Source: a virus
IMG/VR virus record: IMGVR_UViG_3300042309_000455
Location: 1-45,477 of that record
Strand: one strand, 5' to 3'
Length of the DNA: 45,477 nt
Each line of letters starts with the position of its first letter. Position 1 is the first letter of the stretch. Below are positions 1-45,477 of the stretch, piece after piece. Under the pieces are notes generated by a model. The model searched no databases, had not been told where the DNA came from, and saw only the letters and a program-made list of their open reading frames with translations. The translations under genes and the position numbers were made by a program.

Positions 1-1
1 A

Positions 2-226
2 ATAGATAATAAAAGATCAGCATCGTTAGATAGGATAGATCCAAATAAGGGCTATGTGCCGGGGAATGTTAAGATTGTTTCTTATGAAGGCAACTCCCTA
101 AAAAATAGAAACAATTATCATTCCGCCGTTAAGATGCTGGAATATATAATACAAAACTCGCCGCCAGAAGATATGGCACCCGAAAAGCGAGATGAATTAC
201 TTAATCTTCTTAAATACTTTAATTAA
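2..226 (+). CDS. HNH-like endonuclease family protein, C-terminal part (5' end outside window)
   Basis: An open frame enters from the left edge and stops at TAA 224-226, giving about 74 residues. It contains SLDRIDPNKGYVPGNVK followed by an SYEGNSLKN segment. This 'LDRIDxxKGYxxGNVxxVSxxxNxxKN' signature is typical of small phage HNH-type nucleases or zinc-loop proteins, in which the Asp and Asn residues lie in the metal/DNA-binding fold. The N-terminal part, where other catalytic or zinc residues would be, lies outside the window. Function as a homing or recombination-type nuclease is therefore a family inference. Its 3' end overlaps the 3' end of the minus-strand Cys-rich gene by about 30 nt, so the two are convergent. 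Confidence 0.6.
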   Translation: MDNKRSASLDRIDPNKGYVPGNVKIVSYEGNSLKNRNNYHSAVKMLEYIIQNSPPEDMAPEKRDELLNLLKYFN

Positions 227-538
227 CTCTTTCTCAAATTCAGGGTCTTTACTGTATTCTATATTTATTTGTTTTGTATTTTCTGTTCCTTTTATTATAA
301 TAGTTATATATGGTAAATCATATTTCGCACAAGTCATCGACGCGAGAGACACCAAACACGAATCGCAAATCTTCATTAATTTGCCATCTTCTGCAAGCAT
401 ATTGAAATAAACTAATTTGCGTAACGTGAAGAATAATAAATAATCTTGTTTACTATATGCAAGTTCACAACCCTCACAACAGATTCTCTTTCTACAAGAT
501 CTAGGGTTTACAACTGTAACTTGTAATTTGTTCTTCAC
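197..538 (-). CDS. small Cys-rich protein, possible zinc-ribbon, unknown function
   Basis: Minus-strand frame of about 113 residues if the GTG at 538 is the start; a TTG further upstream at 574 would add 12 residues, but those lie in the promoter region shared with the PhoH gene. Two CxxC pairs (C21-x2-C24 and C58-x2-C61, with extra Cys at 15, 20 and 70) suggest one zinc site. The C-terminal third is charged and helical (KDPEFEKELIKVFKKIK). I do not recognise a family. The Cys spacing and the promoter-like motif directly abutting the GTG (538-552, minus) favour a real gene over the smaller plus-strand frame it overlaps. It is convergent with the HNH-like gene and divergent from the PhoH-like gene. 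Confidence 0.55.
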   Translation of the reverse strand: MKNKLQVTVVNPRSCRKRICCEGCELAYSKQDYLLFFTLRKLVYFNMLAEDGKLMKICDSCLVSLASMTCAKYDLPYITIIIKGTENTKQINIEYSKDPEFEKELIKVFKKIK

Positions 539-552
539 TATATATAATACAT
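538..552 (-). promoter_or_regulatory. candidate late-promoter motif, minus strand
   Basis: Minus-strand sequence ATGTATTATATATAG resembles the motif ahead of the gene at 15451 (ATGTATTAATATAAGG). Its last base is the G of the proposed GTG start, so a transcript from it would be leaderless or nearly so. This is a weaker match than the GTGTAA copies. Confidence 0.3.
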
Positions 553-560
553 TAAATAAA

Positions 561-576
561 GAGTATAATAACAATC
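561..576 (+). promoter_or_regulatory. candidate late-promoter motif ahead of PhoH-like gene
   Basis: GAGTATAATAACAATC ends 3 nt before the ATG at 580. It resembles GTGTATAAATAATAAG at 9813. No Shine-Dalgarno is visible. Together with 538-552 it would make a compact divergent promoter pair. Moderate match only. Confidence 0.35.
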
Positions 577-579
577 AAA

Positions 580-1302
580 ATGTCTAAAAAAGATAATTCC
601 CCTCATGTAGCTCAAAAGGAAAAGCTAAAAGATGAATTTGAAATTCGTAAACTAAAATGGACCCCGAAACAAGAAGAAATTATTGCTGCCGCTTTAGATA
701 AAAGCACCAATATTATTATTCTTGATGGGCTTCCCGGCACAGCCAAGACGCTATTAAGCGTTTACTGTTCACTAGAATTACTAAAAGCTAAAAAAGTATC
801 TGATATTGTATATATTCGATCCTTAATTCAAAGCACAGATGGTCAAACTGGCTTCTTGACTGGTGATTTGGATGAAAAGACCTTCTTTTATAACGTACCA
901 CTATTTGATAAGCTGGAAGAATTACTAAATAAGTCTAGCATCGAATTACTAAATAAGCAAGAAAGGATTAAAACCTATCCTGTTTCTCTCCTTCGTGGTT
1001 ATACTTTTAACGTTAATTCTGTAATTCTTGATGAGGGTCAGAACATGATGTTCGATTCTCTCGTTACTGCTGCTACTCGTATGGGTAAATTCAGTAAACT
1101 ATTTATTTGCGGCGATACTATCATGCAAAATGACTTGGGCAAGAAATCTGGGTTTAAAGAGTTTTGTGATATCTTCCAAGATCAAGATAGTCGTGATAAT
1201 GGTATTCAATACTTTAAACTTGGGCCAGAAGATATTATGAGAAGCGGCATTACACGCTTTATTGTTGATAAGATCACTAAATACAAATCAATTATTCATT
1301 AA
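580..1302 (+). CDS. phoH: PhoH-like P-loop ATPase
   Basis: The 240-residue protein carries a Walker A motif GLPGTAKT at about residues 50-57, a Walker B-type VILDEGQN at 147-154, and FICGD at 175-178. These occur in the order and spacing of the PhoH family, which are cytoplasmic ATPases or putative RNA helicases common in large phages. Their role in infection is not established. The ATG at 580 is the first in frame and follows a promoter-like A/T motif without a Shine-Dalgarno. The gene is divergent from the Cys-rich gene, and its stop overlaps the stop of the minus-strand metallopeptidase-like gene by 11 nt, so it is probably a single-gene transcription unit. Family assignment is firm; cellular function is not. 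Confidence 0.9.
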   Translation: MSKKDNSPHVAQKEKLKDEFEIRKLKWTPKQEEIIAAALDKSTNIIILDGLPGTAKTLLSVYCSLELLKAKKVSDIVYIRSLIQSTDGQTGFLTGDLDEKTFFYNVPLFDKLEELLNKSSIELLNKQERIKTYPVSLLRGYTFNVNSVILDEGQNMMFDSLVTAATRMGKFSKLFICGDTIMQNDLGKKSGFKEFCDIFQDQDSRDNGIQYFKLGPEDIMRSGITRFIVDKITKYKSIIH

Positions 1303-1567
1303 ACTTTTGTTTCATCCTTTGATGAATAAGTCTTGATAAAGTATTAGCACATTTAGTTACTTTTGTTTCTGATTCTTGCCAGAAGAATGCGTGTAATACT
1401 TCATGTATTAGAATGTTGATCGTTTTTTGCTTGGTTAAGGCTGGATCAATTTTAATCTTTGGATTTTCCATCTCTGGAGAATCGCATATACCATAGCACC
1501 CTTTGGGCGGTTTAACCCAATTGATAATGTATTCGACCTTTTCGTAATTTTTGAACGAATACTTCAT
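1292..1567 (-). CDS. small HExxH metallopeptidase-like protein
   Basis: Minus-strand gene of 91 residues starting at ATG 1567-1565. An upstream ATG at 1648 exists, but the promoter-like GTGTAATTGTAATAG ends one base before 1567, and the intervening 27 residues look like translated intergenic DNA. Residues 55-59 read HEVLH in IHEVLHAFFWQESE, a zinc-metallopeptidase helix with possible third ligands in the following Glu residues (65, 67). The layout (short beta N-terminus, HExxH helix, C-terminal helix) resembles small phage proteins of the SprT/ImmA-like gluzincin type. Catalytic activity is inferred. It lies between two plus-strand genes, convergent with PhoH and divergent from the zinc-ribbon gene. 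Confidence 0.75.
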   Translation of the reverse strand: MKYSFKNYEKVEYIINWVKPPKGCYGICDSPEMENPKIKIDPALTKQKTINILIHEVLHAFFWQESETKVTKCANTLSRLIHQRMKQKFNE

Positions 1568-1568
1568 T

Positions 1569-1583
1569 CTATTACAATTACAC
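1569..1583 (-). promoter_or_regulatory. late-promoter-like motif, minus strand
   Basis: Minus-strand GTGTAATTGTAATAG, one base upstream of the ATG at 1567. It closely matches the plus-strand copy at 6609 (GTGTAATTAATTATTAGG). Finding the motif in the correct orientation in front of one of the only two minus-strand genes supports a promoter role. A transcript starting about 6 nt past the A/T core would begin at or next to the start codon. Confidence 0.55.
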
Positions 1584-1603
1584 TTACTTTTTACTGTTAT
1601 CAA

Positions 1604-1619
1604 CCTATAATAAATTAAT
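1604..1619 (+). promoter_or_regulatory. weak promoter-like A/T motif ahead of zinc-ribbon gene
   Basis: CTATAATAAATTAATG lies 5 nt before the ATG at 1625 and partly matches the recurrent motif, lacking the GTG. It would form a divergent pair with the minus-strand copy at 1569-1583. Low confidence in this A/T-rich background. Confidence 0.25.
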
Positions 1620-1624
1620 GAATT

Positions 1625-2026: not shown

Positions 2027-2027
2027 A

Positions 2028-2720
2028 ATGGCTCATAAAGTCCAAAAAGAATCATTTGAAAAGAACATTGCTATAATAGACGAAGAAATTCGCAAACGCA
2101 AGAACAAGTGGAACCTTGCTGCATTGTCTTGGATTGATTTCGAGGACGTTGAGCAGATATTAAGGATTCATATTTACAAAAAGTGGACTTTATATGATCC
2201 AAAGAAACCTCTTGCCCCTTGGTTAAACATTATCATTTCTAATCAAATAAAGAACATCATAAGAAACAACTATGGCAATTATGCTAGACCTTGTTTGAAG
2301 TGTGCGGCGGCAGAATGGGATGATTCTTGTTCAATATATGGTGAGCAATGCAAGAAGTGCCCCTTGTATGCTCATTGGGAGAATAATAAAAAAGACGCTT
2401 TCAATACAAAAGTAACTCTTCCTCTTGAAAATCACATTAAAGAAGTTCATGACATGACAAACGAAGGCTTTGATCTTTTGAGAAGCACACAAAGCTTATC
2501 GTCAGCACTAAAGAAAGTATTAAAGCCAGCAGAGTGGGTTGTGTATGAAATGCTTTGTCTAAGAAATCAAAAAGAAGAAGAAGTAGCTAAAGTATTAGGA
2601 TTTAAGACTACTGAAAAAAATCGTTCCCCCGGTTACAAGCAGATAAAGAACCTTAAGCGTTCTATTATTGTCAAAGCTAAGAAGTGCATTGTAAATGGAG
2701 AAGTAGAAATTTATGTCTGA
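2028..2720 (+). CDS. phage sigma-70-family RNA polymerase sigma factor with Cys-cluster insertion
   Basis: 230 residues. Residues about 36-81 look like sigma region 2: FEDVEQILRIHIYKKWTLYD, then PLAPWLNIIISNQIKNIIR, matching the 'YDPxK..F..W...II.N.I.d..R' core-binding and -10-recognition helices. Residues about 158-216 fit region 4 (LKPAEWVVYEMLCLRNQ, EEEVAKVLGF, then a basic helix). Between them lies a Cys-rich insertion, C89-x2-C92 with C101 and C108-x2-C111, that could bind zinc. Region 3 and an N-terminal region 1 are absent, so it resembles compact late or ECF-like phage sigma factors. It sits between the zinc-ribbon gene (1-nt gap) and the packaging genes (8-nt overlap). The recurrent GTGTAAATAATA motif is the natural candidate target. 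Sigma assignment is by motif reading only. Confidence 0.75.
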   Translation: MAHKVQKESFEKNIAIIDEEIRKRKNKWNLAALSWIDFEDVEQILRIHIYKKWTLYDPKKPLAPWLNIIISNQIKNIIRNNYGNYARPCLKCAAAEWDDSCSIYGEQCKKCPLYAHWENNKKDAFNTKVTLPLENHIKEVHDMTNEGFDLLRSTQSLSSALKKVLKPAEWVVYEMLCLRNQKEEEVAKVLGFKTTEKNRSPGYKQIKNLKRSIIVKAKKCIVNGEVEIYV

Positions 2721-3831
2721 AAATGGAAACCAGCCTCAAGAACTTAATGATCAACAAAGATTGGCAATTTTAAATGAGTGGAACAATCGTCCTACTAATC
2801 CTCCTTCTTTGCTTGAACTTGTCAGGCTTGCTTTTCCTAACGTTGATGGCGCAGACGGTAGAAGTTGGCACGGTAAAAAGGTCAAAGAGTTCTTGTCAAC
2901 AAGACAAATTAAAGCAAGAGCATCCTACGAATACTTAGCGAAAGATAAAATTGAACTATCTCCAGACCAGAGAGAATTTATTGCTAATAATGCCGGTTCA
3001 ATGGGCGCACTTGAGATCACTAAGAGTATTTTTAATAACCAAAATCTTACTAGTCTCAGTCAAGAGACTCGTACAGTTATTGATTTCATTAAAACTCTTG
3101 ATCAGAAAGTAATTCAAGCAGGTCCAGTATCTCAAAGAGAAGTAGAGACTCTTGCTAACTCTGAATATATGCCGCCAAAGACATTTGAGCGGATGTTGTT
3201 TCGCATAAATAAATATGTTCACGAAGGTATTGATAAAGACAAAGTAACTTCACGCCAGAAAGCTGCTATTAATGCTATCATTGGCTACATGCACACTTAT
3301 CGTTTCTTGCATCAGATAAATAGTTATACTTCTAACATTGATCGTGAATTATTTGAAAGCTCATTTGTACGTTATACGTTTGACAAACCAGATCTCACTC
3401 AAGAAGAAGTAGACCAATACATTGTGTTGGCTACTGAAGTGGTAATTTCAGCTAATATTCAAGAAACAATTCAAACTCTGCAAGATCAGATTGATGTAGA
3501 AGTAGATGGCGGCGGCAAAATTCCAATGGGTCTTATTGAAGCTATCAGTGGAGCAAGAGACGAGTATAACCAATCTACTATTCGCCAACAAAAGCTTCTC
3601 AATGACCTCAAAGTAAAGCGCAGTGATCGCCTTAGCAAGCAAATAAAAGAAAACGCCAGCATTCTTAATCTTGTTCAAATGTGGAAAGAAGAAGAATCCC
3701 GCGCTCAACTGCTAAAGCTTGCCGAAAGAAGAAAAGCAATGGTTAAAAATGAGATCGACAGGCTTTCTACAATGGATGAAATCAAATGTCGCATCTTGGG
3801 AATTTCAGAAGATGAGGTGTTAAATGGCTGA
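2713..3831 (+). CDS. putative terminase small subunit / DNA-binding protein
   Basis: 372 residues, overlapping the sigma gene by 8 nt and the ERCC4-nuclease gene by 8 nt. Residues about 32-62 (LLELVRLAFPNVDGADGRSW then KKVKEFL) form a helix-turn-helix-like segment with the 'GADGRSxxGKxVKxFL' pattern seen in phage packaging-associated DNA-binding proteins. A second helical segment spans residues 83-108. Residues about 265-350 are rich in Lys, Glu, Arg and Gln and look like a coiled coil. The position two genes upstream of the large terminase fits a small terminase subunit, though at 372 residues it would be longer than usual. A general DNA-binding function is the alternative. Confidence 0.45.
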   Translation: MSENGNQPQELNDQQRLAILNEWNNRPTNPPSLLELVRLAFPNVDGADGRSWHGKKVKEFLSTRQIKARASYEYLAKDKIELSPDQREFIANNAGSMGALEITKSIFNNQNLTSLSQETRTVIDFIKTLDQKVIQAGPVSQREVETLANSEYMPPKTFERMLFRINKYVHEGIDKDKVTSRQKAAINAIIGYMHTYRFLHQINSYTSNIDRELFESSFVRYTFDKPDLTQEEVDQYIVLATEVVISANIQETIQTLQDQIDVEVDGGGKIPMGLIEAISGARDEYNQSTIRQQKLLNDLKVKRSDRLSKQIKENASILNLVQMWKEEESRAQLLKLAERRKAMVKNEIDRLSTMDEIKCRILGISEDEVLNG

Positions 3832-4762
3832 GACCTGTAAAATATGTCAAAAAGTTTATGAAACTGATGTAGACTTTAATCGACATCTTAAAGCTCATAA
3901 AATAAGAGTAATTGAATATTATCAACAGCAATTGCCTCGCTATGATCTCTTCGATAATTCTATTATCAATTACAAAAATAAAGAACAGTATTTCTCTACT
4001 GATTTTAACAATAAAAACAATCTTAAAAACTGGCTCAAAGCTCAGTCCTTAGAGAAACAGCAAGAGTACTGTAGAAACTTTTTAGTTAAACGCAAAGAAA
4101 AGAAAAATCTAGAATATACTCCTTCTCAAGTTGAGTTAAGGAGCGTTCTAAGTCCAAGTGTTATTTATTTGCAAGAAATTTTTGGCGACTACTATAAGCT
4201 TGCTGAAGAAATTGGATTTAAAAATAAATATGTATATCCAAAGAGCTTGGAAAACCTTCCCAAGCTACAAACTAAGGACTCAATAATTTATATTGATACC
4301 CGCGAACAGAAACCATTTATATTTAACATGGCTTCTGAAGTTCGCACTCTTAAATTTGGTGATTATGGATTTAGTCATCCAAGTTATGATGGCAAACTTT
4401 ACTTTGAGAGAAAGTCTATCTCTGATTTTATAGGAACTTTGAGTGCTGGGTACGAAAGATTCTGTCGAGAGATTGAAAAAGCCAGCGAAGCAAAAGCTAA
4501 CATGGTTATTATTGTTGAAGAAAGCTTGAGCAATACACTCTCATTTAACTATTTACCTCATGTGTATAAGAAAGCAACGAAGGTAAATCCAGAATTTATT
4601 TTTCATAACGTTAGAGAGCTAATACAAAAATATCCACACGTTCAATTCTTGTTTGCAAAGGGGCGTAAGGAATCTGTTAGGATTATTGAGAAGATGTTCT
4701 CAACTGATGAGAACTTTTTTAAATACGATCTACAACTTTGCTACGATCTAAAGATGTTATAA
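3824..4762 (+). CDS. C2H2 zinc finger fused to ERCC4-type (XPF-like) nuclease
   Basis: 312 residues. The N-terminus is a classical C2H2 finger: C5-x2-C8-x12-H21-x3-H25. A basic middle region follows, with a segment at about residues 99-133 (YTPSQVELRSVLSP...GDYYKLAEEIGF) resembling a small DNA-binding domain. Residues about 154-285 form an ERCC4-type nuclease fold, with IDTREQKP at 157-164, KFGDYGFS at 177-184 and YFERKSISDF at 193-202. These are the metal-binding D...GDY...ERKxxxD signature of XPF-family nucleases. It overlaps the upstream gene by 8 nt and ends one base before the large terminase, so it belongs to the packaging operon. A role in genome-end processing or resolution of branched DNA before packaging is an inference. 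GAGGTG at 3814-3819 gives a plausible ribosome site. Confidence 0.85.
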   Translation: MAETCKICQKVYETDVDFNRHLKAHKIRVIEYYQQQLPRYDLFDNSIINYKNKEQYFSTDFNNKNNLKNWLKAQSLEKQQEYCRNFLVKRKEKKNLEYTPSQVELRSVLSPSVIYLQEIFGDYYKLAEEIGFKNKYVYPKSLENLPKLQTKDSIIYIDTREQKPFIFNMASEVRTLKFGDYGFSHPSYDGKLYFERKSISDFIGTLSAGYERFCREIEKASEAKANMVIIVEESLSNTLSFNYLPHVYKKATKVNPEFIFHNVRELIQKYPHVQFLFAKGRKESVRIIEKMFSTDENFFKYDLQLCYDLKML

Positions 4763-4763
4763 T

Positions 4764-6605
4764 ATGTGGTATACCCCAGAAAAGTACAATAGAATAATTC
4801 CTAACTTAAATGACGAATATTCTAAACTAAAAGATACTCTTGAAGATAAAGAAGCCAAAATAACTTTGGCTAAATTTTTGCGTTCAAATATAGGCATAAC
4901 TACAGAGCTAATTTCTGGTATAAAATTATGGCCTTATCAAGAGATCGTAATCAAAGGAATGTTGAATCGCAATTTCTGCATGAACGTATGGGGTCGTGGT
5001 GCTTCCAAGTCTTTCTCTGCTGCGGTATTCTGTTTTTTGCAATGCATCTTTGAGCCTAAGAGCAAAATCCTAATTGCTGGTCCTACATTCAGAACAGCAA
5101 GAAGTATTTTTAATTCAATAGAAAAGATTACTGAGTCTAAAGGCGCAGATTTATTGATGCAAGCGTTCGGCGCAAAATCAAAACGCAATGACGAATATGA
5201 TTGGTCAATAAACGAAGGCTCTATCAAAGCTATTCCTCTAAGCGGTGAAAAGATTCGTGGTTTCCGTGCTAATGTTCTTGTACTAGACGAGTTTTTATTA
5301 TTGCCAGAAGATATTATTAAAAACGTATTGATGCCATTCTTGATTGTTCCTCAAGACATTAAAGAACGTATTAGTATTCGTGAACAAGAAGATGAATTAA
5401 TTCGCCAAGGCGCAATGACAGAAGCTGATCGCATGGAATTTAAGAATACTTCCAAGATGATTGCTCTTTCCTCTGCTTCTTATACTTTTGAAAACCTTTA
5501 TAAAACTTATAAAGAATGGTGCGACAACATTTATTCCAAAGAACCAACAAGTGCAACTTACTTTGTATCACAATTAAGTTATGAAGCTTTGCCGCCAGAG
5601 ATGATTGACTCTTCTATTACAGAAGAAGCTCAAAACGGTGGCTCTTCTCATGCTTCTTTCTTGAGAGAATACTGCGCTCAGTTTACTGACGGTAGCGATT
5701 CTTACTTCAGCATGAAGAAGATGGAAGAATGCACTCTTAAGTTTGAAGAAAGGCCACATTCTCAAATCAGAGGAGATTCTGGCAAGCAATATATCTTAGC
5801 AATGGACCCTAACATGAGCGACAGTCCAAATGCTGACTATTTTGCAATGGCAATTTTAGAAATAGACCGAGAAAATAAGAATGATGTTCTTGTTCATGCA
5901 TACGCAGGTCTTGGAAGCTTAAATAGTCATATTAAATATTTTCATTACTTAATGACTAGCTTTAATATTGTTTATATCATTTGCGATAATGCTGGTGCTG
6001 ATATTTTCTTCAACACTTATAATGAATCTCAGTATGTAAACTCGGAATCTGAGAAGATAAAGTTTATTGACTTCGATTCTGATCTTGAGGGTATTGAATA
6101 TACGAAGATGGTTCAGAAGGCTAAGAGTCAATATAATCTTGAGAATAGGCAAATAGCAGTAACTCAGGTATTCACAACTACATTTATTCGAAGAGGTAAC
6201 GAAAATCTGCAAGCAGCCATTGACTATAAGAAAATTTGGTTCGCATCTAAAACTGTAGCCAATGAATCTTTCTTTAATGAAGAAATAAACAAGAGAATAC
6301 CTGAAGATCTTATATTCATAGAAGACATTAAAGATTGGAATAAGCTAGACCTTATAGAACATCAAGATTTATTGGTTTACAATACCAAAAAGCAATGCTC
6401 GCTTGTAGAATTTACTACTAGCAGCCGTGGATCTGTTAATTTTGATTTACCTCAACACTTAAAACGCTCCAATTCCCCTAACAGAGCAAGAAAAGATAAT
6501 TACACGGCTTTAATGTTAGCGAAATGGGGTTCCAAATGCTATAATGATATCATGACTACTGAAAATAAAATAGTAGCTGCGGGATTTACACCAATTTTAA
6601 TTTAA
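4764..6605 (+). CDS. terL: terminase large subunit (packaging ATPase/nuclease)
   Basis: 613 residues. The ATPase domain has a Walker A-like WGRGASKSFS at about 76-85, an LIAGPT adenine/strand segment at 103-108 and Walker B VLVLDEF at 171-177. The nuclease domain begins near residue 342 with LAMDPNMSDSPNADYFAMAI (first catalytic Asp at about 348), followed by IICDNAGAD (Asp about 408) and a late Asp in RKDNYTALMLAKWG near the C-terminus, matching the RNase H-like triad of large terminases. It would power DNA translocation through the portal encoded next and cut concatemers. It is separated by one base from the ERCC4-nuclease gene. Length is typical of terminases of large phages. Confidence 0.93.
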   Translation: MWYTPEKYNRIIPNLNDEYSKLKDTLEDKEAKITLAKFLRSNIGITTELISGIKLWPYQEIVIKGMLNRNFCMNVWGRGASKSFSAAVFCFLQCIFEPKSKILIAGPTFRTARSIFNSIEKITESKGADLLMQAFGAKSKRNDEYDWSINEGSIKAIPLSGEKIRGFRANVLVLDEFLLLPEDIIKNVLMPFLIVPQDIKERISIREQEDELIRQGAMTEADRMEFKNTSKMIALSSASYTFENLYKTYKEWCDNIYSKEPTSATYFVSQLSYEALPPEMIDSSITEEAQNGGSSHASFLREYCAQFTDGSDSYFSMKKMEECTLKFEERPHSQIRGDSGKQYILAMDPNMSDSPNADYFAMAILEIDRENKNDVLVHAYAGLGSLNSHIKYFHYLMTSFNIVYIICDNAGADIFFNTYNESQYVNSESEKIKFIDFDSDLEGIEYTKMVQKAKSQYNLENRQIAVTQVFTTTFIRRGNENLQAAIDYKKIWFASKTVANESFFNEEINKRIPEDLIFIEDIKDWNKLDLIEHQDLLVYNTKKQCSLVEFTTSSRGSVNFDLPQHLKRSNSPNRARKDNYTALMLAKWGSKCYNDIMTTENKIVAAGFTPILI

Positions 6606-6608
6606 AAT

Positions 6609-6626
6609 GTGTAATTAATTATTAGG
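6609..6626 (+). promoter_or_regulatory. late-promoter-like motif ahead of portal gene
   Basis: GTGTAATTAATTATTAGG occupies the only gap between the terminase and portal genes and ends 3 nt before ATG 6630. It is one of the best matches to the recurrent motif. AGG at its end could double as a weak ribosome site, but the spacing is short. Confidence 0.5.
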
Positions 6627-6629
6627 CTT

Positions 6630-8516
6630 ATGGCAAAGGTTAAAAAAGAAAAAATTGAGGAATCTTCTTTCGCTCCAATGATGGTAGAAGGCTCTACTCC
6701 TGCTCATGGCGGTGTAGCAAGCAGGGTTACCGAGACAAGAAGCCGTAGAAATGCCGCATCAACGATTGAGAGAACAGATCGTTTTCGCAATATCGATGAT
6801 GGAATGGTGCCATTTAACTATGCCACTGGATATAATTACAATAAGTCTAATATTGACGTAAGAGATACTGTAATTCTATGCCAAAAAGCTTATTATAATT
6901 TTGGTCTTTTTAGAAATACCATTGACCTAATGTCAGAATTGTCTTGTGGTAACATTCATCTTAAAGGTGGCAATAAAAGCGCAAGAGATTTCTTTCAAGC
7001 CTTATTTAACAAGATAAATATTACTGCTCTTCAAGATAAATTCTTTAGAGAGTATTATCGTTCTGGAAATGTTTTCATTTATAGATACGATACTACCATA
7101 AGAGAAGAAGATGTGTCTAAAATTAGCCAAGTTTTCGGATCTGAAGCTTTGGCGGCAAAAGTTTCTCTTCCTGCTAGATACATAATTATTAATCCAGCAG
7201 ATGTTCAAGTAAATGGTAACCTTTCTTTCAATAGAGGGCAGTACTATAAAGTATTGACTGATTATGAACTTGAGCAAATCAGACATCCAAGAACAGAAGA
7301 AGACAAAGAAATATTAGACTCTCTTGATCCATTAGTAAAAGAGCAAGTTTTAAAAGGAAAAGCTACAGCAGTTCTCTTACATTTGGATACCAAGAAATTC
7401 TATGCTGTATTCTACAAAAAGCAAGACTATGAACCTTTTGCTGTGCCTATGGGTTTCCCAGTTCTTGAAGATATTAGCGCAAAAATCGAAATGCGCCGTA
7501 TGGATATGGCTCTTACAAGAACAATCCAGCAAGTTATCTTGCTCGTAACAATGGGTGCTGAACCTGACAAGGGCGGCGTTAACCAAGAGAACTTAAAAAC
7601 AATGCAAAATCTCTTTGCTAATCAATCAATTGGCAGAGTTTTGATTGCAGACTATACAACAAAAGCAGAGTTTGTTATCCCTCAAATTGCTGACATTCTT
7701 GATCCTAAAAAGTATGAAGTAATTGATAAGGACATTAATATTGGATTAAATAATATCTTAATAACAAACGAAAAATTTGCTAACACTAGCGCAAAGATTT
7801 CTTTATTGAGTCAAAAATTATTACAAGCTAGACAAGCTTTCGTAACTGACTTTCTGCTTCCTGAAGTAAAAAGAATTTCTAAAGAAATTGGATTTAAAGT
7901 ATTTCCTACTCCTTTCTTTGAGGATATGGATCTCAAGACAGATCAAAATCTTAACAGAATTTATACTCGCCTTATTGAACTTGGAGTTCTCACTCCAGAA
8001 GAGGGTCTTAAGGCTATTGAAACGGGAGTCCTTCCAACTCCAGATGAGTCTGTTCAGTCTCAAACATCGTTTGTTGACTTGAAAGACAAAGGATTTTATC
8101 AGCCCTTAATTGGTGGTCCTAAAGTAGAAGCGGGTAGACCCGGAGGAACCACAGGGATTAAACAAGCTACCAAAAATGTTAAGCCAATCGGCACTTCTTC
8201 TAAAGCTAATTACAGTGTTATGAAATTAAAAAACATTGTAGAAGCTACAAGCAAATTAGGAGATGAAGTAGAAGCTTCTTTAAAGAAGAAACATAAGCTT
8301 AAAAAGCTAAACGATAAACAAAAAGAAGTTGCCCTTGATATTACTAAGATTATTGTCGCTAATGAAGACAAATCTAATTGGACTTCTAAAATAAATGAAT
8401 ATATTGAAACTCCTGTAGATAAAAATCCTCAAAGAATTGAAGAAATTCACGAAATAGCTTGCGAGCATCAAGTCGATTCTTACATGGCTAGTTTGCTGTA
8501 CCATAGCAAAATATAA
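6630..8516 (+). CDS. portal protein
   Basis: 628 residues. The gene directly follows the large terminase and precedes virion genes, which is the standard portal position. Residues about 80-150 (VILCQKAYYNFGLFRNTIDL, then FREYYRSGNVFIYRYD) resemble the portal wing start, 'xxYxxNPxxxxxIdxxxxFvxGG...ylxGNvfiy'. IINPADVQVNG and a central amphipathic stretch with many basic and acidic residues follow. The C-terminal 150 residues are Lys/Glu-rich with a Gly/Pro-rich linker (RPGGTTGIKQ), as in large-phage portals. The stop TAA shares its final A with the ATG of the next gene (TAATG at 8514-8518), implying translational coupling. It would form the dodecameric DNA channel at the capsid vertex. Confidence 0.85.
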   Translation: MAKVKKEKIEESSFAPMMVEGSTPAHGGVASRVTETRSRRNAASTIERTDRFRNIDDGMVPFNYATGYNYNKSNIDVRDTVILCQKAYYNFGLFRNTIDLMSELSCGNIHLKGGNKSARDFFQALFNKINITALQDKFFREYYRSGNVFIYRYDTTIREEDVSKISQVFGSEALAAKVSLPARYIIINPADVQVNGNLSFNRGQYYKVLTDYELEQIRHPRTEEDKEILDSLDPLVKEQVLKGKATAVLLHLDTKKFYAVFYKKQDYEPFAVPMGFPVLEDISAKIEMRRMDMALTRTIQQVILLVTMGAEPDKGGVNQENLKTMQNLFANQSIGRVLIADYTTKAEFVIPQIADILDPKKYEVIDKDINIGLNNILITNEKFANTSAKISLLSQKLLQARQAFVTDFLLPEVKRISKEIGFKVFPTPFFEDMDLKTDQNLNRIYTRLIELGVLTPEEGLKAIETGVLPTPDESVQSQTSFVDLKDKGFYQPLIGGPKVEAGRPGGTTGIKQATKNVKPIGTSSKANYSVMKLKNIVEATSKLGDEVEASLKKKHKLKKLNDKQKEVALDITKIIVANEDKSNWTSKINEYIETPVDKNPQRIEEIHEIACEHQVDSYMASLLYHSKI

Positions 8517-9790: not shown

Positions 9791-9812
9791 TTTCCTTAAT
9801 CGGTAAATTTTA

Positions 9813-9828
9813 GTGTATAAATAATAAG
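9813..9828 (+). promoter_or_regulatory. late-promoter-like motif with exact TATAAATA
   Basis: GTGTATAAATAATAAG contains TATAAATA at 9816-9823, the T4-type late promoter octamer. The ATG at 9838 lies 14 nt beyond the octamer, so a typical start point would leave a leader of under about 10 nt. No Shine-Dalgarno is visible. Confidence 0.55.
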
Positions 9829-9837
9829 CTACAAAAT

Positions 9838-10407: not shown

Positions 10408-10408
10408 T

Positions 10409-11416: not shown

Positions 11417-11419
11417 AGA

Positions 11420-11437: not shown

Positions 11438-11439
11438 AT

Positions 11440-12098: not shown

Positions 12099-12100
12099 AT

Positions 12101-16140: not shown

Positions 16141-19100
16141 ATGGCGCAATTTGCTATAGATGAATTATTCACTACGGGCGTTCAGATATCTGGTTTTATA
16201 TTTGATCGTTCTTACAGTTTAGGAATTGCCGGTCAAGTCCTAACAGCTACGTCATCTGGAGTGATGTGGCAAGCAGATTCAAGTAATACTGATCTTGCAG
16301 CTTTGAGTGGACAAATTGCTGCTACTGGAACCTTATTAAATAATAGGATAAATTCTCTTAGCGGTTACTCTGATGCGACCTTCGCGACGATAACGAACCT
16401 AGCTGCCACAGGTTCGACTCTTAACGCTAGGATTAATTCTCTAAGTGGTTATGCAGGTAGCACTTTCTTATCTGGTCAAGGAGTGGCTAATTGGACCGCT
16501 CGCTGGAACGGGACTAAAGAATTAATTACAGGTAGTATTTATGATTTAGGAACTGGAGTTGGAATAGGTACGACAAGTCCTTCTGCCAAACTAGAAGTTT
16601 TTAGCGGAAATGCTATTATTAGAAATGATAATCCCGGTGGCGTAGCTTCTTTATACATAAGAAATTGGGCAACAAATCCGGCCACCCAATTAGTTTTTGG
16701 TAATTCAACTAGTGACGATTCAAGTACTACATTAGGTTTAAATGCTAATGTTTTTTCTATTACAAATTATGGTGATCCGGGAAGTTATATTAAATTTGGA
16801 ACTCGTAATGCATCAACGGCTGAGATTAGAGTAACAATTGATCCAAGTGGAAGAGTTGGGATAGGTACAGAAATTCCATCTACATTGTTATCAATTGGCG
16901 GTGCGGGTTCTACTACTGCTTTAAGTGGTATAACTTTTGGCGCAGATAGTCAAGCTAATTTATATAGAATATCTTCCTCAAGGATTAAAACAGATGGTAA
17001 TTTTACTATTGATGGTCAAGGAGGAGGAGCTTCTTCTTTAGTATTAAATAGAATTTCTGATTCTTATGAGAATGGAATGGCATTTACTACAGCAGGTTCT
17101 GTCGATTGGTATTACTATGTAGACAATGCAAACACCAATTTACAGATACAAAGAGGTGGAGAAATTGACACTGCTCCAAGAGTTCGTTTTGATGGAGCTA
17201 ATAGTAATATTTTATTTAATTTAGGAGGAGGAAATGTTGGCATAGGAACCGATACTCCAGCAGGAAGATTACATGTATCTGGAGCAGATGGTAATGTTCT
17301 TTTTTTAAAGCAAGGAGTTACTGGTTCTCAGGGGGGTATTTATTTTGAAAATGCAGATGGTTTTGCCACTTCTTCTGCTAGACTTTACTTCATAAGTGGT
17401 GATTCAGTTTTATTTACAAGAGGTCCAAGTAATTTGGCTTGGAGTGTGTCTCAAAATGCAAATGTTGGAATTGGAGTAAGTAATCCTTCTGAAAAATTAA
17501 CAATCACTGGTGCCGTTAAGATTTTAACAAGAGATGGAGCTAATTTTAAAGTTGGTGATGGGTCAAATAATAATACATTTTTAGAAATTGACTATCCTGA
17601 CATTTCTAGTGCTAATGCTTATTTTAGATTATTTAGAAATACAAATACAAACGGTGGGAAGTATTTTCAAATATTTAAAGGAGATGGCACTGCTGGATCT
17701 CAAACTCTTTTAAATGCCAATGGAGATTCCCATATTAATGCAGTTGCAGGAAACCTTGGAATAGGAACAGATAATCCAATTTATAAGTTAGATGTAATTG
17801 GTACAGTAAGAGCAAGTGGAGAGTTAATTACTGAAGGAAATAATGCAAGAATTTCTTTATTTAGAACTAATGGAATAAATTATTTTGATTGGGCAACTGG
17901 TCAAAGTTTATATTTTAGCACCGAAAATACTGTTGGGGGAGGGGGAAGAAATACTCTAATGAGTATAACTTCTAATGGCAATGTCGGTATTTCAACAACA
18001 AGTCCTACTTATAGCTTGCAAATTGGACAAAATGCTTCTGGCAATAACATAGACTATTCTTTGGGTATTTTAAGACATGGTACATTAACTTATCCCGGCA
18101 CTTGGACTTCAACTCCAGCATTTAAAATTATTGATCTTGCGGACGGAGGACCATCTAGCGTTGATATTTACGGAATAATGAATCTTGAATTACCAAGATT
18201 CCAAGCATCAGATACAAATGCCGAAAAAGCTTCTCTTTTTCTTATTTCTTTTGATACTGCAATGGGACCACTAAGAATAGATGGTAAAGGAAATCAATGG
18301 ATTGGATATGATAGAGTAACTACAGGAATAAATAATTCATCTTTTTCTTCTTTAATTTATGGAGGATTAGCAGTTGGAGATACTTATCAGACTACTACTT
18401 TATCAAACGGACAAGCTATATTTCAAGGTAATGTAGGTATAGGTATTACTAATCCTAATGTAAGATTGGTAGTAGCTAACACAGGTGCAGCGACAAGTAC
18501 TTCTACAGTTAGAATAATTGGAAGTACGGGAAATGGTGCTGGTCCACAAATTGAATTTTTCAAAGGTACAAATCAAAGATTTAGTATAGGTGCATCTTCT
18601 GCAATTACCGGAGGCTTTTCTGAGGATCTACTTTTAGCGACACTTAATCCAAGTTCAATAATTTTAGCTGCTGGAGTTAGCGGATTAGCAATTTTTAAAC
18701 CTGATGGTAAAGTTGGAATTGGAACTATAAATCCACAAACACTTCTTTCTCTTGGTGGACTTGGATCAACTTCAGCAGCGAGCGGTATCACTTTTGGAGG
18801 AGATGCTCAAGCAAATTTATATAGATCTGCTGAAGATACAATTAAAACAGATGGCTCTTTAGAAGTCACTACTAATTTAAATATTGGAGCAGATCTTTAT
18901 GTAGCTGATGAATTAGGAGTTGGCGTACCAATTGCTAATAAGAGAGTTAATTATGGCGCACAAATTGCTACTGCTAATGCCTCTATTCAATTAGTTCTAG
19001 GAAGAACGGCTAGTGCTACTGGCCAAGGAGCAATTGGAGCAGATGCGAATAATACTTTTGCTGTATGGAATGTAAGCGGCGGACTTTCCAAGCAAATGGT

Positions 19101-28300: not shown

Positions 28301-31300
28301 AAGCAAAAATCATCAAATGTAGGTTTAGTAATCCAAGAGCCGGGAAATGCTAGTTTTGATAGAGCTTTACATCTTTATACAAATGCTTCATTAGCTACAA
28401 TTGATGCTACTTATAGAGATACTGGACCTTATCCTGATATAGCTTTTGTGACTAGCGGAACGGAAAGAGTAAGAATCAATTCTGCTGGTAATGTATTAAT
28501 TAGGACTACGACATCAACTACTAACGGTGGTCTTTTGCAAATTGGTCAAGTACCAAATACTACAGCATCTAGTATAGGTTTTAATAATGACGATAATGCG
28601 GTAATAAGTGCAAAATATAATTTAGTGTTTCAAATTGATAACACCAATTCTGTTGCTAGTAGATCATATGAGTGGAACAAAGGTGGAAAAGGTTATGGTG
28701 ACGGTACTAATTTGATGACACTAAATGCGGCAGGTAAACTTGGAATAGGAACGGCTTCTCCAACTACTCTCTTGTCAGTTGGTGGTGCGGGTTCTACAAC
28801 AGCAGCAAGTGGCATAACATTTGGTGCAGATGCTCAAGCTAATCTTTATCGTGGCGCGGAAGATACTCTTAGAACAGATGGAGCATTAATTGCAGGGGGA
28901 TATCTAAGGGCTTTAAGTTATGTTCAACTTGTAACTGATTTATATCCGGGTTCTTATACAGATAATTTAAATCTTAACATAGGGAATACCGCAGGAAATG
29001 CTTGGGAAACCGCAATCAAGATCAAACCCGGATCTTATGTTGGAATTGGAACGACAAATCCAACAGGTAAACTTCATGTCGTTTCTTCTGTCGCTGGCGA
29101 AACAGTTTTTAGAACAGACGGTACAAACGGAACCCTATTCTCAGTCGTTGATGACCTCAGTGATTCGTTAATGTCAGTAAACAATTCCGCAGGTCTTCCA
29201 GTCCTAGAAGTCTTTGCTGATGATAGGGTTGTCGCTGGGCAATATGGAAGTGGAGACTTCGTTTTAATTAATAATAAAATTGGTGTTGGTACGAGTAACC
29301 CAGCAAATAAATTATCAGTAATTGGAGCCGCGAGCATTGGCTCAAATAGCTACAATGTATCTGCTCCAGCGAATGGATTAATTGTTGAAGGTAGTGTCGG
29401 TATAGGTACTACAAGTCCTAGTAGTAAACTTCATGTATATGATAATGGTGGTTCATTTATAACAGATTTAGACGCCACATATCATATGGGTATATTGAAT
29501 GAATACGTTTCAACATATGTATCTAGAACTAAATTTGGCAGATGGAATAGTACTTCAAATTTAGAACTATATTATGATATTGCTGGTACTGAAGAAGCAA
29601 GAATTACAAGAAATTTCGCCGCTGCTGTTTTAAAATTTAATAGAGGCGTTAATACCGACATGATAATTGATGGTAATGGTAATGTTGGTATTGGAACAAC
29701 AAATCCCTCACAAAAATTAGATGTTCGTGGAAATATAAAGTTAGGCGCAGACGGTGCAGGTAACTATATTTATTATGTAAAAGATACAGAAGGAACGATA
29801 ATTAACACTTCAAGATCAGATGTAAGTCAGCAAGGTTTACTTAGATCAGATGGTTGGGGTAATTTTACAGTAGATAAAAGTATTGGTGTTGGATATAGTT
29901 TAGGAAGCTCGTTTGCTTCTTCTACTATTGGAAATGGTAATTTATATGTTGCTAATACTATAGGAATAAATACAACAAATCCAGCCGAAAAACTAGACGT
30001 TAGAGGTGGAATCCTAAGAACGAATAGTAGAATTAGTAATTCTGAAGGTTATCCGCTTGGCCACTATTCTCCCGGAGAAACGGTATTTGAAATAGACCCC
30101 ACATGGAGCCAAGCTGAACTTCAAAAATATTTTAATAGTAGTAGTGTCACTTGGGTAGCAGTAGCTGATGCTCCCGGGGGTTATTGTATTTATATTGATG
30201 GATCAGCTAATGTTGGTGGATTTGCTGATTCTGGCTTCCCTTATATTCCAGTAGACACTAGTGATATTTTCTACATGGAATGTTGGATTCAAAATGTAGG
30301 AACAAATCAAGGTCACTACATGGGAAGCCAAGATTTCGATCACAATTTTAGTAGTTTAGGAGGCAATCCCGGTTCTTATGGTTATTGGGTAATGAGTAAT
30401 TATAGTCCCGGTACTAGTTGGACTAAAGTAAGTGGTTATATTACTGGATTTGGAAGCTCAGTTGGTCAATTTGTATCTGGTACAAAATATTGGACTCCTC
30501 AAGCTTTATTCAATTATACAGCAGGAACTGGAACAAGAGCCTGTCGTATTTCTGGATGGAAAATTATAAAAGTTTATCACCCCGGCAATAGAACCTTTAC
30601 AGGAAGTATAAGCGCAGGTACAAGTATTAGTGCTGGTACTAATCTTACTGTTGGTGCTGATCTTTATGTTGCTGATGAGTTAGGTGTTGGAGTTGCTATT
30701 GCTAATAAGAGAGTAAACTATGGAGCGCAAATAAACGCAGCAAGTGCTTCTATTCAATTAGTTCTAGGAAGAACGGCTAGTGCTACTGGCCAAGGAGGAA
30801 TTGGTGCAGATGAAAATTCTACATTTGCGGTTTGGAATGTAAGCGGAGGGGTCAATAGACAATTTGCCATTTCTCAAAGAGGTAATTTAGGTTTAGCTAC
30901 TTCAACTGCTGCTCCTAGTTCCAGATTAACAATTGGTACAGATTTTGCAGGAGCTTCTGGTATTTCTATTGACACAAATGGCACTTCTAATTCAGCAATT
31001 GTTGTTAGAAAAAATTCTAGTATGGCGGCTTATGGAATCCTTCCTTGGGATTCTGAAGTTTATTTAAGCGCAGGAATATATTATAGAGAAGGAACTTGGA
31101 CTCATCATAATGCTAATAGTAATAATCAGTTATTTGTAATGTCTCCGGGTGGAGGAACTAAATGGTACGCTTCAAATGACGGTGCAGGTTCTTGGAATGT
31201 TGCAAGTGCTGTTACTCTATGGGATGACTCTGTTCATTGGAAATCTTCAATTAGATCTACAAGGGCAATAGACTGCTATATAAGTGGAGCAAGTCTCGCT

Positions 31301-42429: not shown

Positions 42430-44091
42430 ATGCCAAGAAATAGAGTAATTTACCAAAATGAAGCATTATACGTTGGCCCTTCGCCAGCCATATCTGGTCA
42501 CTATAAGTTTGTTACAGGAAGCAATGTAAATGTTCCTACTCAAAAATTAAATCAATTAGATCCTCTTGCTACAAGAACTTTAGCCTCTGGAGCAGGAACC
42601 ACCACGGCTAGTCTTGCTACTATGCAAGCAGGTTTGCTTCCAAATTTAGCTAATTTAGATCGTATACAAAGTATTAATTACAACTTTAATATTACGAGAA
42701 GAGATGTAAATCAATTTGGAAATTTAGCCGCAATAGACAAAATCATTATAGAGCAACCAGTAATAAATATTGATTTTAATTACTATCAAAACGGTCTTAA
42801 GAATGAAGAAGAATTAGGTTTCACTACGACTTCTTTGAAGAGAAGTGCTGCTGTAAATTTAACAATTACTGCTTCTGGGCAATCTGAATTTGGAATTACT
42901 GCGGCTTCTATTGCTGATGGCGGTCAAGGTTATTTAAATTCATTTACTTTAACATTGCCACAAGCCGGTGGAAATATGCCTCCTGTACTTTCTTTTGGCG
43001 TGGCTACTGGAGGATTATATGCGGGTCAAGCAACAGGAGTCTCAATAACTGATAAAGGATCAGGAGTTATTTATATAAATAATTCTCAAATCGCAACCAC
43101 AGTTTCTATTGTTAATATTCCAGTTAATGTCGGGATTGGCGGTACGAGCAATCAATCAACTTTTTCTCCAACTTTAGCAAATAACTATCCAGAAGGTACT
43201 TCTAGTATTGTAGATATAACCTGTTTAAGCGGAATACTTACAAAAGCAAGTGACGAAAAAAATTTGTTTGTAAGAACTGTGCCTCAAGGAAATGACGTAA
43301 GTGTTGCGACAACCGGCACACTGGATCAAGCCATTATCGCTTTTGGAAATACTGTTATTACAAATTACGCTATTAATGCAGCAGTAGGAGACATCCCAAA
43401 TGTGGCAATTAGTAATGAAGCTAGAAATTTTTCTATAGTTACTGGAGACAACGATTTTAAATCTAGTTCTGCTGGTAGACGTTATCCATTGCCTTCAATA
43501 GACGAAGAAGGAACAAGAGTAAATGGGACATATTCTCTTCCAGATTTTAACAGCAGATCAGACCTATCACAAAATATATCTGCATTTAGACCCGGAGGCA
43601 TCATCCTTGATTTAACTCCATTTTATGCTTCTGGAGGATTAGGAATTGATACAAGGTCTTCTTCTTTAAACGCTCAAAGTTTCAGTTTATCAATGGCTTT
43701 ATCTAGAGAATCTTTAAGTAAACTTGGAAATACTTTTAATTTCGCAAAAGAAATTACTTTTCCAGTTAGCTACTCTTTCTCTGTCAATGTTTTGGTATCA
43801 GAACTAGCAACTGGTAATTTAGTTGATGTAGTTTCTAGTAAAGATATTAAATTCAATACTTCAGTCTCTTTTATTAAACCCGGAACTGAAGTTTCAAGTT
43901 ATGGTAAGATAACTGGTGTAAGATATTTAATTAAATCAGCGCAGTTAGAATCTTTAGACTTTAGTTCCTCAATTGGAGCTAACAAAACAGCTACTTTAAC
44001 CTTTGGAGGTCAAATGAGTTCTCCTCAAGATTCCACTAAAGGTGTATTTATGCAGGGAGATTATTGGATGCAAAGACAAGAAATCATATAA
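42430..44091 (+). CDS. tail-tube-like structural protein, paralogue B, with inserted beta domain
   Basis: 553 residues, starting NRVIYQNEALYVGPSP and ending with LDFSSSIGANKTATLTFGGQ and SPQDSTKGVFMQGDYW. It aligns along its length with paralogue C (44152), including YNFNITRRDVNQFGNLAAID, FGNTVITNYAINAAVGDIPN and LSRESLSKLGNTFNFAKEIT. It is about 160 residues longer, largely through an insertion at about residues 138-240 (ASIADGGQGYLNSFTLTLPQ, ATGVSITDKGSGVIYI) that resembles the 'GGxGYTxxPTVTxxG...VTSITVTxxGxGY' small beta repeats. Insertions of Ig-like domains in major tail proteins are well known. It is probably a tail-tube or outer tail protein. Confidence 0.6.
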   Translation: MPRNRVIYQNEALYVGPSPAISGHYKFVTGSNVNVPTQKLNQLDPLATRTLASGAGTTTASLATMQAGLLPNLANLDRIQSINYNFNITRRDVNQFGNLAAIDKIIIEQPVINIDFNYYQNGLKNEEELGFTTTSLKRSAAVNLTITASGQSEFGITAASIADGGQGYLNSFTLTLPQAGGNMPPVLSFGVATGGLYAGQATGVSITDKGSGVIYINNSQIATTVSIVNIPVNVGIGGTSNQSTFSPTLANNYPEGTSSIVDITCLSGILTKASDEKNLFVRTVPQGNDVSVATTGTLDQAIIAFGNTVITNYAINAAVGDIPNVAISNEARNFSIVTGDNDFKSSSAGRRYPLPSIDEEGTRVNGTYSLPDFNSRSDLSQNISAFRPGGIILDLTPFYASGGLGIDTRSSSLNAQSFSLSMALSRESLSKLGNTFNFAKEITFPVSYSFSVNVLVSELATGNLVDVVSSKDIKFNTSVSFIKPGTEVSSYGKITGVRYLIKSAQLESLDFSSSIGANKTATLTFGGQMSSPQDSTKGVFMQGDYWMQRQEII

Positions 44092-44131: not shown

Positions 44132-44151
44132 AAATTTAAAGGATTAAAAAT

Positions 44152-45339
44152 ATGCCAAGAAATCGTGTAATTTACCAATCAGAAGCACTATTCAACACAA
44201 AAGACATTGTTGACGTAGCGGCTTCTGCACCACCACAAACTGGAAATTTATATATTAACCAGTTTTCTCGCGTCCAATCTTGTAATTATAATTTCAATAT
44301 TGCAAGAAGAGACGTTAACCAATTCGGCGATCTAGCTGCTATTGATCGTATTATTCTAGAGCAACCCACCGTAGGAGTTGATTTCACTTATTTGCTAACA
44401 GACATGGGCAACGAAAAGAACCTTGGATTTTCAGTAATTAGCAATGGAATTACTACTATTTCTGATATCACTAGCGCAAATGCTACTCAATCTTGCTTAT
44501 CTGGAATTCTAACCAGCGGATTCATTAATACTAAAAATTATTTCATCAGAACAGTTTCTGAAGGTAATGATGCTTCTTCTTTTGCTAATGATACTGTTGC
44601 TAACCAAACAATAGGAAGCACAATTGGATTAGGAAACGGTTTCTTAACTAATTACTCTATTAACGCTGCTGTAGGAGACTTCCCAACCACTTCTGTCAGC
44701 TTGGAGTGCTTAAACATGAATTTCAGCAATGGAAATTCAGGTGCTGCTCCCGGTGTTACTCCTGCTGGAGCTATTGCTGGAGGTGCGTTTATTCTACCTC
44801 AAGCTACAGGCAATCCTAATGGTGAAAACGCTTTGGGAAAGATTTCTGCTCTTAGACATGGAGATATATCATTCTCTTTATCAAAGACTCAGGGTCAATC
44901 TTATGGCGGTACTGATTTAACTACTTCTGCCGCTATTCAAAACTTCTCAATCTCAATGGGTCTAAATAGAACTCCATTGCAAAAGATCGGAAGCAGATAT
45001 GCTTATTCAAGAGAAATTGATTTCCCAGTTACTGTAACTCTTTCTGTTACAGCTTTGGTACAAGATCTTACTACTGGTAACTTGGTCGATCTAGTAAATG
45101 TAGATGGTCTCTATGACGCAGTTATCAAACTCGCTGCTCCTGCTGTTGCTAACAGTGATTTGAATCCTGATGAAGGCGTTGGATATGTACTCAAGAGACT
45201 TAACTTGGATTCACAAGACTTCTCTTCTTCAATCGGAGCCAATAAACAGGTCACGCTAAACTTCTCTACTCAAGTTGGCTCTCCTCAACAAAATGACAGA
45301 GGATTGTTCATGCTTGAGACATTGCCTCTCGACGCATAA
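44152..45339 (+). CDS. probable major tail-tube protein, paralogue C
   Basis: 395 residues, starting PRNRVIYQSEALF and ending LDSQDFSSSIGANKQVTLNF, then SPQQNDRGLFM. It lacks the insertion of paralogue B and is the leanest of the three. The fold reads as beta-rich with no signal peptide or Cys pairs. It has its own promoter-like motif, a good Shine-Dalgarno, slightly more C-ending codons than B and its own strong terminator, all expected for an abundant virion protein. These features make it the best candidate for the main tail-tube subunit, with A and B as specialised relatives. A contractile-tail sheath is not seen in the window, so tail type is undecided. Confidence 0.65.
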   Translation: MPRNRVIYQSEALFNTKDIVDVAASAPPQTGNLYINQFSRVQSCNYNFNIARRDVNQFGDLAAIDRIILEQPTVGVDFTYLLTDMGNEKNLGFSVISNGITTISDITSANATQSCLSGILTSGFINTKNYFIRTVSEGNDASSFANDTVANQTIGSTIGLGNGFLTNYSINAAVGDFPTTSVSLECLNMNFSNGNSGAAPGVTPAGAIAGGAFILPQATGNPNGENALGKISALRHGDISFSLSKTQGQSYGGTDLTTSAAIQNFSISMGLNRTPLQKIGSRYAYSREIDFPVTVTLSVTALVQDLTTGNLVDLVNVDGLYDAVIKLAAPAVANSDLNPDEGVGYVLKRLNLDSQDFSSSIGANKQVTLNFSTQVGSPQQNDRGLFMLETLPLDA

Positions 45340-45356
45340 GCTAAAATATTAACTTC

Positions 45357-45388
45357 AAAGCCCCAGCCTAAAAACTGGGGCTTTTTTG
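45357..45388 (+). terminator. intrinsic terminator after paralogue C
   Basis: AAAGCCCCAG (45357-45366) pairs with CTGGGGCTTT (45375-45384) over an 8-nt A-rich loop, followed by a T-run. Strong. Confidence 0.92.
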
Positions 45389-45397
45389 TTTTTATGC

Positions 45398-45414
45398 GTG
45401 TAAAGATTATTAGG
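45398..45414 (+). promoter_or_regulatory. late-promoter-like motif of the next operon
   Basis: GTGTAAAGATTATTAGG starts about 10 nt after the terminator and precedes ATG 45436 by 21 nt. It is a near-consensus copy. Confidence 0.55.
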
Positions 45415-45435
45415 TAAAGGTATTTCAAAGGTATT

Positions 45436-45477
45436 ATGGCTATGGATATAAAAATGAAAGAGTTTATTCTCTTTCAA
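45436..45477 (+). CDS. start of a further gene, cut by window edge
   Basis: Open frame of 14 codons (MAMDIKMKEFILFQ) running off the right edge, with AAGG at 45427-45430 as a weak ribosome site 5 nt upstream and a promoter-like motif and terminator before it. A second ATG at 45442 is possible. Too short to identify. Following the tail-tube gene, a tail chaperone or another tail component would be expected by gene order only. Confidence 0.5.
   Translation, partial: MAMDIKMKEFILFQ

Follow-up and report, generated by a model that had tools for sequence, protein, structure and literature searches.

Why should a phage genome hold not one copy of a five-base word that its own proteins and codons should produce dozens of times? 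The question is raised by the pentamer CCWGG (CCAGG or CCTGG) in a 45,477-nucleotide stretch of viral DNA (IMG/VR record IMGVR_UViG_3300042309_000455, positions 1–45,477; the whole stretch is called the window below). The window exactly matches positions 8-45484 of a 65,409-base IMG/VR contig (G001), which represents a partial genome of an uncultured tailed phage. The original prediction, made by reading the letters, held that both forms of the word are missing, and exact counts on both strands give zero CCAGG and zero CCTGG. In the comparison with other pentamers suggested alongside that claim, CCWGG ranks as the most strongly depleted by z-score, with 35.9 copies expected in the window under a maximal-order Markov model. 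We also shuffled codons 1000 times in each of two ways, preserving proteins and codon usage in the 30 genes that make up 96 per cent of the window: pooled shuffles yielded 36.1 ± 3.1 CCWGG (minimum 27), and shuffles within genes 34.2 ± 3.1 (minimum 24). The two dozen or so sites first estimated for chance are thus somewhat too few.

The effect is specific to the site and is not a general codon preference, as had been proposed: near-neighbor words in the window are not depleted (CCSGG 40/23.4, CCGG 57/48.1; here and below, site-word figures of this form are observed/expected counts), and the codons of proline before GG are skewed. Specifically, the window has 35 proline codons preceding GG, distributed over 14 genes, and all are CCC (26) or CCG (9), exactly matching the predicted 35 or so Pro-Gly pairs in at least 14 genes. 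Elsewhere, 421 of 457 proline codons are CCA or CCT, as expected from the same reading, and 36 are CCC or CCG (Fisher P = 5e-34 against proline before GG). Coding CCSGG correspondingly numbers 37, against 7.3 ± 2.5 in the pooled shuffle, and none of the 174 TGG and AGG codons follows a codon ending in CC. The eight places singled out in the original prediction all lie within three bases of a Pro-Gly pair (Table 1). Selection against CCWGG in the lineage of the window is well supported.

Nor is the avoidance confined to one phage; it is older and more widespread. A search with the terminase large subunit retained 80 of 365 relatives, 62 of them at 85–100 per cent terminase identity and 18 at 66–67 per cent. 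All 62 close relatives, some of which are short and among which the window's own contig is included, have no CCWGG; after removal of repeated sequence, this group (231 kb) has CCWGG 0/170 and CCGG 246/256. The 18 more distant relatives show the opposite state, as they have no CCGG and, as a group, retain CCWGG (CCGG 0/40 and CCWGG 78/121 in 167 kb with repeated sequence removed). Another 36 viral loci (L160-L195) came from a broader search with the terminase, and 14 of them contain CCGG while 22, many of these being short, do not; one of these 22, L194, belongs to contig G035, in which CCGG overall stands at 10/29. Among relatives found by their polymerase, 32 of the 52 listed loci that are 9 kb or longer have no CCWGG (some of the 52 share contigs, and three came from another query). 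Many contigs of a wide uncultured family therefore have no or nearly no copies of one of the two words. For CCWGG, they include G041 (0/134 in 164 kb), G042 (0/101), G044 (0/125), G045 (0/78), G048 (1/87), G029 (1/47), and G043 (3/121), with G040 being partly relaxed (46/186); for CCGG, they include G033 (0/27), G034 (0/24), G068 (0/33), G046 (1/69), and G067 (1/99). The sequences used for G044, G048, and G050 stop 0.5, 8.8, and 3 kb short of the contig ends, respectively.

To place the two states relative to each other, we mapped them on a 40-row tree of polymerases, made up of 37 of the 60 polymerase loci and three clade B contigs. The other 23 loci, which are short, cut or near-duplicate, were left out; rows marked 'w' are partial or too short to call, and row L240 (4/14 in its own locus) carries the counts of G040, another contig of similar state. 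Six label changes are needed on this tree for CCWGG and four for CCGG, and shuffled labels gave values as low in 0 of 500 and 6 of 500 trials, respectively, with the proviso that near-copies by themselves can produce such clustering. CCGG avoiders occupy four separate places, and in two of these four lineages the sister avoids CCWGG (L275 with L259, and L237 with L273). In the L237/L273 pair both words are low (in L273, CCWGG 2/15 and CCGG 4/18).

The change of word is accompanied by mirror-image codon use. In 21 CCWGG-avoiding contigs, which overlap in part, proline before GG is CCA or CCT in 4 of 699 codons; in 10 CCGG-avoiding contigs, also overlapping, it is CCC or CCG in 1 of 313. Non-avoiders use both kinds, with the exception of G065 (CCW in 18 of 18). 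Direct comparison of sisters points in the same direction. None of 10 CCWGG in G046 is kept in L259, eight having been lost synonymously, all to CCSGG; conversely, none of 19 CCGG in L259 is kept in G046, with 15 lost synonymously. Of the control words in the two directions, GCWGG was kept in 7 of 31 and 7 of 23 cases and CCWGC in 0 of 4 and 0 of 6, and in a pair of the same state (G020 to G033) 12 of 26 CCWGG were kept. The more distant pair A_G023/B_G033 has just 2 of 10 and 2 of 9 synonymous changes because the proteins differ, and numbers are small for L273/G067 (CCGG kept in 0 of 3, CCWGG in 1 of 3). Avoidance is thus achieved largely by synonymous change under selection.

CCWGG and CCGG are both classic targets of cytosine methylation, and Dcm-like or HpaII-like methylation in the host followed by deamination could erode them as a pure mutation bias. 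In three of seven genomes, the expected products CTWGG and CCWAG do exceed expectation by 13–23 per cent (G042 414/368, G044 582/504, G048 349/284); in the other four, they are at expectation (window 125/137, G002 217/228, G041 472/459, G029 150/154). With products at or slightly above expectation, mutational decay does not explain the zeros. Moreover, Pro-Gly pairs are retained through CCC and CCG, which cannot be made by deaminating CCA and CCT codons, and the number of sites is exactly zero in many genomes. We therefore regard mutation bias as highly improbable. The avoidance is real, extreme, widespread across the phage family, and selective.

The best explanation, and in our judgment a probable one, is long-standing selection by Type II restriction enzymes of the hosts, with CCWGG or CCGG as their target. 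In most sampled lineages, including that of the window, a host enzyme would cut CCWGG at single sites, and in at least four lineages a host enzyme would cut CCGG instead. The phages would escape by having no sites, largely through synonymous changes, since they have no recognized C5 methyltransferase, and a lineage whose target changes would shed the old constraint and acquire the new one. We infer the host enzyme as the agent, as well as its type, by elimination of less likely agents and by analogy with known cases of avoidance. Other avoided words differ by lineage, as host systems would: in the window clade, for example, G002 has neither CTGCAG (0/16.0) nor GGATCC (0/11.8). Some further losses were seen in single lineages (G041, GATC 0/384 and GTAC 0/241; G043, GATC 0/364; G044, GGCC 51/259), and GAATTC is scarce in the window (3/16.6), G001 (4/22.6), and G023 (10/26.8) but reaches a normal count in G005, a sister contig (17/16.2).

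Of the restriction systems originally named (Dcm/EcoRII/PspGI-type), a CCWGG-cutting system stands as the best explanation, while Dcm does not fit and EcoRII would fit less well. Dcm is a methyltransferase and cuts nothing. EcoRII requires two sites at once and so would put no pressure on the final remaining site, for which an enzyme cutting at single sites is the better match, and the complete absence of CCWGG from many contigs would argue against a two-site agent of the EcoRII type. Phage T7, which is faced with the same word and tolerates few sites, keeps some EcoRII sites because that enzyme needs two; the present family differs in having zero CCWGG in contigs of up to 164 kb, which again points to a single-site cutter. 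The proposed agent would resemble MvaI, BstNI, and PspGI, which share the CCWGG specificity, in this respect.

Partly relaxed genomes provide a hint of when such cutting might act. In G040, the first 41.8 kb contain no CCWGG and the remainder contains all 46 (P = 0.00015 under even placement). We divided contigs at the PhoH and polymerase cluster into an early arm and a late (structural) part; G020, G028, and G067, which are without an early arm, and G046, which has another gene order, were excluded. Sites are scarcer in the early arm than in the late part of G040 (17/107 versus 27/56) and G061 (11/38 versus 33/50), and the same holds for CCGG in G035 (2/20 versus 8/8) and G038 (0/11 versus 6/13). 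Three further contigs show the same direction with no significant difference (G043, 0/41 versus 3/66; C_G029, 0/3.5 versus 1/35; G048, 0/21 versus 1/50). Pooled over the seven contigs, the counts are 30/241 early and 79/277 late (combined one-sided P = 4e-6). Full avoiders are clean in both arms, and the residual sites of G020 (CCGG), G028 (CCWGG), and G067 (one CCGG) all fall in the late part. This polarity suggests that sites cost most in the DNA that enters and acts first. Given the cleaner early arm of partial avoiders, cutting probably acts on entering DNA, the early arm being presumed to go in first. In phage T5, first-step-transfer DNA is site-free and sites are tolerated in late-entering DNA; the present family is similar in that the presumed late-entering part tolerates sites, and differs in showing a graded contrast between arms and in that the order of entry is deduced.

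A different agent could be encoded by the phages themselves: an endonuclease specific for CCWGG or CCGG, carried without a methyltransferase and directed against host or competitor DNA, would require its own genome to be site-free. It would account for the constancy of CCWGG or CCGG as the avoided word while other words vary, for contigs that avoid nearly this word alone (G042, G029, G048, and G068), and for the fact that all four replacements are CCGG, a related CC-GG word; the relative G042 even carries an orphan NaeI-like endonuclease domain. However, the polarity between early and late DNA is not expected of an enzyme made after entry, and EcoRII-C, MvaI/BcnI, and HpaII searches produced no candidate. 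No CCWGG- or CCGG-type endonuclease was recognized in family contigs among the best 25 of 43, 37, and 66 Pfam families, many phage genes having no known family and the window-clade genomes all being incomplete. The NaeI-like catalytic domain (L301:13757-14320 (-); phmmer E 8e-17 to NaeI 1ev7) occurs in 1 of 50 contigs, and it does not explain CCWGG because NaeI cuts GCCGGC. Eight gene families occur in four or more far CCWGG avoiders and are missing from every non-avoider; of these, the five inspected look unlike nucleases, the other three being about 580–630 amino acids long. We consider a phage endonuclease of this kind unlikely. A fuller version, in which one inherited determinant, probably an unrecognized CC-GG-cutting phage nuclease, would travel with the family and attack the DNA of hosts or competitors at CCWGG, and at least four specificity changes to CCGG would force the mirror-image rewriting of Pro-Gly pairs, is in our view also rather unlikely.

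Several candidates were set aside in these searches. EcoRII-C matches in 4 of 25 contigs (clade B) scored 17.5–19.5 bits, below the 25-bit cut-off, had internal stops, and lay on the clade B homologs of the sigma-70-region-2-like gene of the window (Table 1); a second set of 34 contigs gave no EcoRII-C match, and neither did the control genomes. The MvaI/BcnI profile matched 0 of 29 contigs and the HpaII profile 0 of 15. A PADLOC REase_II match in G041 (1.6e-4) is probably the HNH protein of that contig. Among the avoider-specific families, one of about 200 amino acids starting MGMYD, found in seven CCWGG avoiders and no non-avoider, does not resemble a nuclease, and four others resemble cupin, TolQ/TolR-like, and signal-peptidase proteins (named by reading). 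Two core proteins of no known family adjoining the polymerase showed no nuclease motif when their alignment was inspected by eye. A glycosyltransferase cluster seemingly absent from some non-avoiders was dropped as a correlate, since the contigs concerned are not complete and G046 has the cluster at another location. As for the NaeI-like open reading frame (ORF) of G042, it has no second domain, its start resembles part of a tRNA gene by eye, its contig has no methyltransferase profile match, and GCCGGC in G042 is at 0/5.4.

The C5 methyltransferase profile had no match in two overlapping sets of 20 and 37 contigs, which are incomplete, and the N6/N4 profile matched 1 of 40 contigs, G061. This contig is relaxed for both words (CCWGG 49/99, CCGG 50/147), and its methyltransferase-like protein may indicate that methylation there replaces avoidance, a single case that is a lead rather than proof. 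The match is a 365-amino-acid ORF (E_G061 66347-67444 (+), locus L362) with a TSPPY motif seen by eye. Among 82 proteins, PADLOC gave a single weak match to MTase_II (E 0.0087). An ArdC-type anti-restriction domain (PF08401) occurs in 4 of 13 contigs searched (G018, G035, G038, and G039), all of clade B, and two of these four avoid CCGG only partly.

Some host factor that is not a classical Type II enzyme, such as a methyl-dependent nuclease acting on host-methylated CCWGG or some other sequence-directed defense, would leave the same sequence pattern, and the present data do not point to an enzyme class; we rate such a factor as improbable. Host Type II restriction thus remains the preferred reading, and several observations weigh against it. 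It is odd that host enzymes should be so constant among phages that share no more than about 50–60 per cent polymerase identity and that the replacement word should be CCGG in all four cases, and some family members avoid neither word (for example, CCWGG 54/64 in G063 and 13/20 in B_G055). The polarity was noticed in G040, G035, and G061 before testing and is post hoc for them, it is significant alone in four of the seven contigs, of which two (G035 and G038) are related, and its interpretation depends on an injection order in which the entry of the early arm first is itself deduced. The host search yielded neither a host nor a host enzyme that cuts CCWGG or CCGG. Just one bacterial genome bin contains a distant relative of the terminase (53 per cent identity), and this bin has a single C5 methyltransferase locus; the gene beside it we take to encode a GGNCC-type enzyme, not one for CCWGG.

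In the same host search, three structural-region genes of the window had no protein match, and the terminase, the polymerase, a glycosyltransferase, and a helicase had remote matches only, as was also the case for plasmids. Some contigs carry genes that bear on the host. G033 has a full-length tmRNA gene (L204:14722-15112 (-); Rfam RF00023, 111.8 bits; also found by ARAGORN), which could aid host identification, and a pseudopilin-like N_methyl protein (L200:11736-12404 (+)) that is possibly host-derived. Four clade B contigs encode a protein of 571–835 amino acids (e.g. L090:285-2402 (-)), also possibly host-derived; a PATR autotransporter repeat is present in the single one that was tested.

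The window itself is far from annotated phages: its bases 1-20000 have no near match in the annotated phage collection, where the terminase finds remote relatives in 54 records (22–26 per cent identity among the matches listed). Genes for PhoH, the sigma-like protein, the ERCC4-type nuclease, and the terminase are grouped at its left end (Table 1). The label 'portal' given earlier to ORF 6630-8516 finds no backing in PHROG, where the ORF has no match, and ORF 42430-44091, earlier called a tail gene, has no Pfam match. The 424-amino-acid gene at 8516-9790 is 80–94 per cent identical to its counterparts in G004/G005 and merely 26 per cent to those in G002/G003, to which both neighboring genes are about 98 per cent identical, a pattern that points to allele exchange. 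High divergence is also seen in the giant genes at 16141-32059. Positions 1-226 hold a truncated ORF whose G002 homolog (L101:244-759) is HNH-like by pattern and contains no Pfam family.

Table 1. Features of the window and the Pro-Gly codon pairs at the eight places first singled out.
Feature	Position	Strand	Remark
PhoH-like gene	580..1302	+	Landmark dividing early arm from structural segment
Sigma-70-region-2-like protein	2028..2720	+	Pfam E 5e-5, slightly below family cut-off
ERCC4-domain nuclease	3824..4762	+	Adjoins terminase; found in CCWGG avoiders and CCGG avoiders alike
Terminase large subunit	4764..6605	+	Query for finding relatives
Virion/tail family match	32353-34455		
Virion/tail family match	36666-38720		
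Virion/tail family match	38768-39595		
CCC-GGC pair	733..738	+	PhoH-like gene
CCC-GGA pair	8139..8144	+	ORF 6630-8516
CCC-GGT pair	16633..16638	+	ORF 16141-25335 (3064 amino acids; 9 pairs in the gene)
CCC-GGC pair	18094..18099	+	ORF 16141-25335
CCC-GGA pair	23011..23016	+	ORF 16141-25335
CCC-GGA pair	29027..29032	+	ORF 25340-32059 (11 pairs in the gene)
CCC-GGA pair	43591..43596	+	ORF 42430-44091
CCC-GGT pair	44749..44754	+	ORF 44152-45339

Avoidance of recognition sites is a known phage strategy, and complete or almost complete elimination of a site is reported for about one tenth of viral genomes in one survey (Rusinov et al. 2018; PMC6286503). The present case is alike in that a short palindromic site has been removed from the genome of a double-stranded DNA phage. 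It differs in the exclusion of one word across the deep divergence of an uncultured family, in the four swaps to CCGG with mirror-image codons, and in the polarity of partly relaxed genomes. At the level of titles and opening lines of abstracts, we found no published account of family-wide or switching avoidance, which is not proof that there is none. What this family adds is an unusually clear switching of the avoided word and a possible polarity.

In this family, nature has run a clean experiment on how restriction acts over long periods. The avoided word can be traced over a tree much like an inherited trait; exchanges between the two words run both ways and are mostly synonymous, and the partly relaxed genomes seem to preserve a trace of which arm encounters the enzyme. 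Should the polarity hold, counts of sites might serve to predict the order of injection and a recent change of host in uncultured phages.

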